Source: a virus. From it: a stretch of DNA of 42,983 nt. Position 1 is the stretch's first letter. Every line of letters begins with the position of its first letter. The stretch is taken from IMG/VR virus record IMGVR_UViG_3300022693_004333, positions 1 through 42,983 of that record; one strand, given 5' to 3'. Positions 25,586-36,641 of this stretch are shown one piece after another. A program made the translations under genes and the position numbers. The notes below the pieces were generated by a model. That model had not been told where the DNA came from and searched no databases. It worked only from the letters and a program-made list of their open reading frames with translations.

Positions 25586-26113
25586 TTAGATGCTAGTCTG
25601 CTTTTTCGCAGAAAATGCTAATAAATTACGCTTACCGATTTCCCTTAGCCCTGCATAAGTAAAGGGTAAAGTAAGGAATGCACCCAATATCATAAGATCT
25701 GGCGTGTCATTGATAAACGCATAGCAAATACCAGCAAGCAAAGAGGCTGTTGCGTGAAAAGGCCTTACGTATTTAACGCCACCTTCTGCGTTATCACCAT
25801 TACGAATAGTTTGCTGTGTCTCTGAATGGCTACGCTGTTTATCTTGAAGTTCTAGCGCCATTACTGATTCAAGGTGGCGATTTACTTCAGCTTCTCGCGC
25901 AGCGGCGATTTCTTCAAGCCTAACCATTGCATTGGGGTTACTTTTCAGTGTCACTAGCGCTTGTTCTGGGTCTGTCGTTCCCGTTGCCTGAGCAACCATT
26001 GAAGCCCCAGCACTGACCGCGCCCACTACGTTACCCGTTAATAGCGAACCAACTAAACCGGCTACGCCTTTTTGATTTTGCTTTAGAAAGCTTCCTACGT
26101 CTGACCAGTTCAT
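25586..26113 (-). CDS. GTA-type three-helix holin family protein
   Basis: A 175-residue protein beginning MNWSDVGSFLKQNQKGVAGL. Hydrophobic segments are at about 18-42, 120-138 and 140-160, with a charged helix EEIAAAREAEVNRHLESVMA and the phrase VRPFHATASLLAGICYAF, typical of the GTA holin_3TM family (usually WVRPxxA). It lies between endolysin and the HP1-type holin. The pair may form a holin and antiholin or pinholin arrangement; sequence does not settle which. Confidence 0.75.
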   Translation of the reverse strand: MNWSDVGSFLKQNQKGVAGLVGSLLTGNVVGAVSAGASMVAQATGTTDPEQALVTLKSNPNAMVRLEEIAAAREAEVNRHLESVMALELQDKQRSHSETQQTIRNGDNAEGGVKYVRPFHATASLLAGICYAFINDTPDLMILGAFLTLPFTYAGLREIGKRNLLAFSAKKQTSI

Positions 26114-35669: not shown

Positions 35670-35707
35670 AAAACCCCGTTAATAGCTTGTCCGGCTTACG
35701 GGGTTTT
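35670..35707. terminator. Bidirectional terminator upstream of replication genes
   Basis: A 10-bp stem AAAACCCCGT/ACGGGGTTTT with an 18-base loop. The plus strand shows six T residues after it and the minus strand four. On the minus strand it marks the 3' end of the structured RNA and stands between the early promoter and the replication genes, like lambda tR1. Confidence 0.75.
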
Positions 35708-35916
35708 TTATTGCCTGTAACAATCACATTTTGATTTGTGAGTGTTTTAAGTAACAGACCTCCCAGCCTGCTTGGTCGGGGTTAACGTGCTAATGCGCTT
35801 CACGCCTTACCGACTAGGTAGGATCAACACTTACGGCGCTACCTCGTTATTCCGTAAGCATCAGACCGATATACTGCGTCACCCAGTTAAAGCGCGGCCG
35901 CAAATGTGCAACCCTT

Positions 35917-35992
35917 ACGCTTTGATGTGTAGTTCTCTGCTATGGCTTTACCGCCCCAATAAGTGGGCAAAGCAACTACACTCAAAACGCCC
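35917..35992 (-). repeat. Structured RNA hairpin motif, copy 2
   Basis: Plus-strand flanks ACGCTTTGATG and CTCAAAACGCC enclose the stem TGTAGTT/AACTACA. Inside is a second stem GCTTT/AAAGC. The flanks match copy 1 at 36161-36255 while the stem sequence differs and stays paired. Confidence 0.7.
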
Positions 35993-36160
35993 TCGTTCCT
36001 TAATCGTGGTGAGGGCAACCACGGTCTTTTCGGTGACAAGGGAGACACACCCCTTGGACGGTGTTTAGCAGTTAAGCTACTGCCGCCAGATAAACGCTAT
36101 CGTTTGCATTTATTGATTGAATAAATAGCCACTACGACAACGAAACTTACTCTTTAAGCT

Positions 36161-36255
36161 AACGCTTTGATGAATGGTTGCTTACGCTCGTGCAATCCTC
36201 TGATTGAGGCCTACCTGTGGTTCTGCCTACTTCCCACAACCATTCTCAAAACGCC
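36161..36255 (-). repeat. Structured RNA hairpin motif, copy 1
   Basis: Plus-strand flanks ACGCTTTGATG and CTCAAAACGCC enclose the stem AATGGTTG/CAACCATT. A small inner hairpin CAATC/GATTG is also present. It shares outer sequence with copy 2 but has a different, still complementary stem. Confidence 0.7.
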
Positions 36256-36476
36256 TTGTCTCTCCAAGTGTCACCTTTGTTTCTTACGCCGCTAGCTCAG
36301 GTCACTAGCCCATGCAGGGAAAACCAACCCCATTGGCTTACGCATCGTTTGTCTGATTGTCCATCGCCGTGCTGGAGGCTGGCTCAAGCGGTACAATCAG
36401 GACGTTTAAAGCGCTACGTCAAACGCTTACAGCTGAATAAAAAGGGCCACATACTGCGTAGCCAAAACCCAACGGG

Positions 36477-36641
36477 TTACAGGGATATCTGGAACAAATA
36501 ACTATTGCTAGCTAGGTAACTAATAAAGCCAACAGCAAGCGGAACTAGAACACACGCAATACGAAATTGCGGATCGTCTTTACACTGTTTCTTCAGTGCC
36601 TGCCATTTGCACTTACACCACCAGCAGAAAGGCGAACGCAT
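36477..36641 (-). CDS. 54-residue Cys/Trp-rich membrane peptide
   Basis: Starts MRSPFCWWCKCKWQALKKQC and ends with a single membrane helix (FRIACVLVPLAVGFISYLAS). The Cys-x2-Cys-x-Cys cluster at residues 6-11 next to two Trp could bind metal or lie at the membrane surface. Its ATG overlaps the stop of the 25-residue gene above as TAATG, so translation is coupled. It is the last open frame before the structured RNA. Function unknown. Confidence 0.6.
   Translation of the reverse strand: MRSPFCWWCKCKWQALKKQCKDDPQFRIACVLVPLAVGFISYLASNSYLFQISL

Follow-up and report, generated by a model that had tools for sequence, protein, structure and literature searches.

A phage RNA element homologous to the mRNA-like half of tmRNA, and conserved by covariation across unrelated phages, lies on the minus strand of a gene-free interval in a marine, Alteromonas-type phage. 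tmRNA (ssrA, RF00023) is the cell's ribosome-rescue RNA and by definition unites a tRNA half with an mRNA half as a single functional unit. The element resembles it in having a GCA codon after AUAAAU, a tag of the form AND...A-stop, a helix around the stop codon and pseudoknots on both sides of the tag. It differs in that there is no tRNA-like domain (TLD) on either side, and hence no charging or SmpB-binding half, in that only two pseudoknots are clear after the tag, and in that ARAGORN and Rfam miss it at their thresholds. The element was found in an IMG/VR virus record, IMGVR_UViG_3300022693_004333, the whole 42,983-nt stretch of which was analysed and is referred to here as the window.

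The interval 35708-36476 of the window had been singled out as devoid of genes and ornately folded on its minus strand, within a prophage early operon, and this description holds. Just two ORFs in it exceed 60 aa, both on the plus strand (35772-36068 and 36217-36501), and neither matches a PHROG family; a hidden protein is rejected. Folding of minus strand 35690-36490 (-275 kcal/mol; z = -5.0 relative to dinucleotide shuffles; z = -2.5 for the plus strand in the same test) is far better than that of shuffled sequence. Within the interval, z scores of 260-nt minus-strand windows go down to -4.4, -3.3 and -2.8, and two of these windows lie below all 32 background windows taken from elsewhere (mean -0.56, sd 1.07, minimum -3.08). 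The upstream neighbours on the same strand are ORFs of 54 and 25 aa, and a DnaD-like loader and DnaB helicase follow downstream, also on the same strand; genes for a CI-type repressor and an integrase are found elsewhere in the window, and the positions around 35672-35706 form a bidirectional terminator-like repeat. Among named phages Alteromonas phage P24 comes closest, being 93% identical across 48% of a 20.7-kb query. In P24 (MK241539.2) an annotated hypothetical protein, QIV64695.1, overlies the RNA region at 45575-45913. The annotated stretch is mostly not conserved in the window, and the CDS is probably not a gene.

The original prediction anticipated a structured phage RNA with covariation, which is what the interval contains; what had been overlooked is the chief feature, an mRNA domain like that of tmRNA together with its tag frame. 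The stems originally listed are not the informative part, which is the pseudoknotted core at 35982-36155. A proposed loop pairing (35839-35844 with 35816-35821) does exist as 6 bp, CTACCT/AGGTAG, and taken alone is no better than chance. Likeness to GOLLD or ROOL had also been raised; that the interval encodes a giant phage RNA of either type is extremely improbable, for all that its length, phage setting and ornate folding would fit, since its content is tmRNA-like and no Rfam family reaches its gathering score anywhere in the window (GOLLD, ROOL, OLE and HEARO included; STnc100, RF02076, likewise has no match). When the threshold is relaxed, the one relevant match lies around 36189-36023 and is to models of the tmRNA type, with a best score of 23.8 bits against a gathering score of 47. 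ARAGORN calls neither a tRNA nor a tmRNA in the window.

The core is matched by covariance model R1 with 89.2 bits (E about 1e-22), a value to be read with the window's own core being among the 29 from which R1 was built; the window holds no second match. Its order is solidly established: a pseudoknot region, the resume codon, the tag, a helix around the stop and the H-type pseudoknots PK2 and PK3 (Table 1). In PK2, S1 pairs 36056-36051 with 36042-36037 (CAAGGG/CCCUUG) and S2 pairs 36046-36043 with 36027-36024 (GUCU/AGAC); in PK3, S1 pairs 36023-36018 with 36010-36005 (CGUGGU/ACCACG) and S2 pairs 36016-36011 with 35994-35989 (GCCCUC/GAGGGC). PK1 is supported in most relatives and well formed in those of the long form; it is poorly supported in the window, where only the AU-rich hairpin AUUUAUU/AAUAAAU is clear. 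In three relatives with short PK1 forms (L004, L154 and L299) a loop 5' of the resume codon, AUCAUUU, is complementary to the tag start, AAAUGAU, over 8-10 bp including wobble, and in relatives with AAC at codon 2 AUCAUC faces GAUGAU, as if the loop paired with the start of the tag.

Table 1. Positions of the element and of neighbouring RNA features in the window and in two laboratory phages
Feature	Record	Positions	Strand	Basis or location
tmRNA-like core (mRNA-like domain without TLD)	window	35982-36155	-	covariance model R1
Core 5' part (AGUUUCGU... AUAAAU), place of PK1 in relatives	window	36111-36147	-	alignment and pair counts
Tag frame GCA AAC GAT AGC GTT TAT CTG GCG GCA GTA GCT TAA	window	36072-36107	-	sequence
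PK2	window	36024-36056	-	covariation of both stems across homologues
PK3	window	35989-36023	-	covariation of helices across homologues
Hairpin A, clamp GGCGUUUUGAG ... CAUCAAAGCG, just upstream of core	window	36161-36255	-	P24 and six IMG/VR contigs
Hairpin B, same clamp GCGUUUUGAG ... CAUCAAAGCG, just downstream of core	window	35917-35990	-	homologous hairpin in L360/L363/L364
5' scaffold domain	window	36256-36440	-	common to P24 and L360-L365
Terminator-like hairpin GGCUAC...GUGGCC with U run, 5' edge	window	36445-36464	-	sequence and P24 alignment, consensus only
Conserved 3' segment (AACACUCACAAAUCAAAAUGUGAUUGUUACAGGCAAUAAAAAACCCCG) and bidirectional terminator	window	35672-35749	-	P24 alignment
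P1 element	NC_005856	68879-69069		between dmt and tRNA-Asn
Felix O1 element		25717-25889

Sensitive BLAST against phage records returned 270 records, and in nearly all of them the match to the 1.1-kb query is confined to ~90 nt, a stretch that in the window holds the tag frame; these matches are in Felix O1-like phages, Ackermannviridae, Klebsiella phages and Alteromonas phage H4/4. Pattern scans of the collected loci place such a tag at 134 sites, 87 of them unique in sequence. (A scan with a CUAUUU-form pattern gave mostly chance matches in protein-coding DNA and was discarded.) Covariation was evaluated with 29 cores less than 88% identical, aligned by sequence alone. The model structure, made up of PK1, a hairpin, the stop-codon helix, PK2 and PK3, pairs in 81% of the cells of this alignment vs 40-46% when it is slid; two-sided changes affect 24 of 40 pairs vs 10-13 when slid, a level reached by none of 500 shuffles; the covariation score is 0.297 vs 0.05-0.11 in controls. 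These homologues thus diverge yet keep their pairs through two-sided changes, the opposite of the divergence without preserved pairing that had been named as the alternative outcome. A model-guided alignment of 46 sequences, which leans towards the model that guided it, has S1 of PK2 98.5% paired and S1 of PK3 99.6% paired, with many two-sided changes (4 of the 6 pairs of PK3 S1 have changed on both sides). R1 also weakly recognises some genuine phage tmRNAs over its full length (L029, 37 bits, E 2e-8; L006, 24 bits), which supports common ancestry with tmRNA. Rfam tmRNA models align mainly with the PK1 and tag part of the element family.

The tag of the window looks intact as a degradation signal and reads ANDSVYLAAVA-stop (11 codons), its opening GCA being the presumed resume codon. 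The E. coli tmRNA tag is ANDENYALAA; other phage tags of the family are ANDNVFLAVA (SUSP2), ANDNAYLMVA (phiMAM1) and ANDETQLAAVA (H4/4). The 87 unique cores contain 37 different tag DNAs specifying 24 peptides of the form AND....(A/V)A. Because the search pattern fixed a GCA AAY GAY start and the filter fixed an A-stop end, conservation of these two features is partly a matter of ascertainment; members found by BLAST and by model agree with the tag form (ANEEMYLAVA in L271, for example). The stop codon is TAA, TAG or TGA at the same place (TGA in Felix O1). Between close pairs of cores the third-position changes in the tag are all synonymous, with a rough dN/dS of 0.34, these counts not being phylogenetically independent. 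In 72 of the 87 cores the part 5' of GCA, read back as far as its first in-frame stop, holds no in-frame ATG, GTG or TTG, and an in-frame TAG precedes GCA by 9 codons in the window and by 8 codons in P1. A leader peptide driven by its own start codon is rejected, most members having no start, and an overlapping frame that does have one (AUG CAA ACG) ends variably. The tag frame is thus kept as protein-coding sequence, though normal initiation is impossible in most members, and resumption, as in trans-translation, would be the simplest known way for ribosomes to enter it.

An ordinary or permuted tmRNA is rejected: neither ARAGORN nor Rfam at their thresholds finds a TLD, with its acceptor stem, UUCGAC D-loop, T-arm and CCA, in members of the element family, while genuine phage tmRNAs from the same scan, serving as positive controls, are recognised by ARAGORN and reach 100-153 bits with Rfam. 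Rfam finds no TLD match anywhere in the window, and T-arm motifs are no more frequent there than expected by chance. In two phages the flanks of the element are so filled that a TLD could not fit. The H4/4 core (1493-1669 of L004) starts inside an acetyltransferase gene, and 30 nt separate its end from the following ribosome-binding site; the SUSP2 core comes immediately after a consensus-like promoter, with a tRNA-Arg starting 60 nt beyond it. Some tRNA-rich phages have tRNA-like hairpins with T-arms near the core, which might be a remote TLD. Beside the core of L072, L089 and L138 are long hairpins, GGUAAGRGCAUUG...CAGUGCUCUUUCC, with tRNA-like T-arms (GGUUCGAAUCC) that are not called as tRNAs and may represent a class of shortened phage RNAs resembling tRNA.

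The element has probably been noticed in passing. Genome notes on the Felix O1-like phages Moogle (PMC4319497) and Mushroom (PMC4392139) mention an ARAGORN ssrA, reported as an ordinary tmRNA and given no coordinates, that is probably the same element. When its threshold is lowered, ARAGORN makes a call with tag ANDNVFLAVA and a TLD borrowed from neighbouring tRNA sequence. No tmRNA feature is annotated at the element in the Moogle and Felix O1 records as deposited, and no description of a TLD-less tmRNA was found in a literature search that lay outside bioRxiv and most subscription journals.

In the window the core is part of a larger early RNA with a cassette-like build. Both P24 and six IMG/VR contigs have the window's 5' domain and the clamp of hairpin A (mostly the 3' end too) without the core; since these related phages keep the scaffold and dispense with the core, the latter behaves as one exchangeable module. 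The scaffold contains a stem, CUGAUUGU/ACAAUCAG (36400-36393 with 36360-36353), that is kept through a UA -> AU change, and 48 contiguous bases of the 3' segment are identical in P24. Hairpins A and B show compensatory changes (AAUGGUUG/CAACCAUU -> AAUGACUG/CAGUCAUU and GUGUAG/CUACAC -> GUGCAG/CUGCAC, respectively), as do hairpins sharing the common clamp, GCGUUUUGAG...CUCAAAGCG or CAUCAAAGCG, around differing contents. Long hairpins with other clamps flank the core in many other phages too. Between hairpins A and B of L360-L365 other modules replace the core, for example UAUCGGUAACGGUAAGCAAUAGGGCUUAUUCAUCCGAGUUGG..., with no Rfam match. L202, an IMG/VR locus, has STnc100 (RF02076) at 1331-1118 on the minus strand, 1 kb downstream of its core; this prophage RNA differs from the element in fold and sequence and has no tag. 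Its clamp, CUGUUUGG...CCAAACAG, is the same as that of the hairpins flanking the core, and STnc100 may therefore be another cassette of the same array. Hairpin content CUCCCUUAUGGGGCUUGGCUUAAAUGCA...GAG, which is a second mobile RNA module, occurs after the core in a Felix-type locus (L003 1656-1720) and before it in a lambda-like one (L041).

We give an even chance to the element's being a tmRNA-derived, TLD-less phage RNA that targets host trans-translation, whether by donating a tag or by competing. If ribosomes enter the tag frame only by resumption, the RNA would work on the host's ribosome-rescue pathway; since it has no TLD of its own, either the host would lend the tRNA-like half (alanyl-tmRNA with SmpB, while message and alternative degron would come from the phage RNA) or the phage RNA would compete with host tmRNA for rescue complexes. 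A more specific form of this proposal, in which we place somewhat less than even confidence, is that ribosomes undergoing rescue read a stand-alone mRNA-like domain in trans, which would let the phage instead of the host set the tag on stalled proteins, or block tagging, and that in some phages this domain is an exchangeable cassette of a modular RNA with a phage-specific clamp. Such putative resumption in trans would be sterically demanding.

A rival proposal, that the RNA is a pure decoy, never itself translated, which resembles the body of tmRNA and so ties up SmpB, ribosomal protein S1, RNase R or ribosome-dependent toxins, accounts for the missing TLD and has a precedent in the message-less tmRNA of mycobacteriophage DS6A, which inhibits E. 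coli tmRNA (PMC11915505; that phage-borne half is, however, the opposite one, with the TLD kept and the message missing). We consider it rather unlikely, roughly a one-in-four proposition, because a tag frame, stop and alanine-rich degron end kept through synonymous changes would be needless for a decoy. Two-piece tmRNAs exist, in phages as well (L006 and L029), and tRNA-like hairpins with T-loops adjoin the core in lambda-like prophages, so that the element could be the message piece of a split tmRNA with its tRNA-like piece elsewhere in the phage genome. Two-piece or permuted phage tmRNAs (RF04321, RF01850; phage Melnitz, PMC9004378) are likewise phage-borne with a separate message part. The permuted tmRNA controls, however, carry the 5' half of the TLD on the message piece (GGGG...UUCGAC) and have the acceptor piece upstream in the same gene; both are absent from the element, and with the window also devoid of any tRNA, tmRNA or Rfam TLD match and its T-arm motifs at chance level, a split tmRNA is improbable. 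The lack of a TLD would also suit a relic, an ssrA fragment that was captured and has since decayed, with no present function, as would the frequent integration of prophages in ssrA and the ssrA fragments known in prophages (PMC9004378), yet covariation, coding constraint and upkeep in unrelated, strictly lytic phages make this very unlikely.

The spread of the element, which suggests that many phages may tap into host rescue of stalled ribosomes, takes in P7, D6 and SJ46 along with P1, and phiMAM1, Vibrio pYD38-A, Ackermann- and Alteromonas phages and lambda-like prophages, strictly lytic phages among them. Felix-type elements are found in 253 phage records and a P1-type query matches 257 (the sets may overlap). 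Of 5426 complete E. coli genomes, at least 561 have the P1 type, almost always in plasmid records, mostly of 90-105 kb (P1-like), and 136 have the lambda-like type, on chromosomes; BLAST of the window's own sequence finds no match in plasmids. A model search of family-mates of an Escherichia genome finds the element in 4 of 149. Across phages and E. coli genomes it is essentially unannotated, the sole annotation near the P1 element being a 'dicF-like region'. A conserved message half that is widespread without its partner, and whose selected tag frame is served by no start codon, would imply trans-acting resumption or a new form of interference with ribosome rescue and proteolysis, and the presence of the element in the classic laboratory phages P1 and Felix O1 makes it directly testable. 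The element is also relevant to a connection, known for a long time, between trans-translation and the growth of lambdoid phages (ssrA and lambda-immP22).

Transcription of the element would be driven by promoters placed upstream: in P1 it lies downstream of P1ban/P2ban, with their C1 operator, and the Felix-type core is directly preceded by TTGACA-17-TATAGT (identified by eye). In two lambda-like prophages it is located between the Q antiterminator and lysis genes. A hairpin resembling an intrinsic terminator is seen 5' of the element in several phages (at 36445-36464 in the window, and in the P1 and lambda-like loci), and the element may consequently be made only under antitermination. In the Moogle record (KM236239, 61252-65011) tRNA genes are listed on the plus strand, with the homologous element and the neighbouring genes on the minus strand; the strand given for the tRNAs is probably an error of the record.
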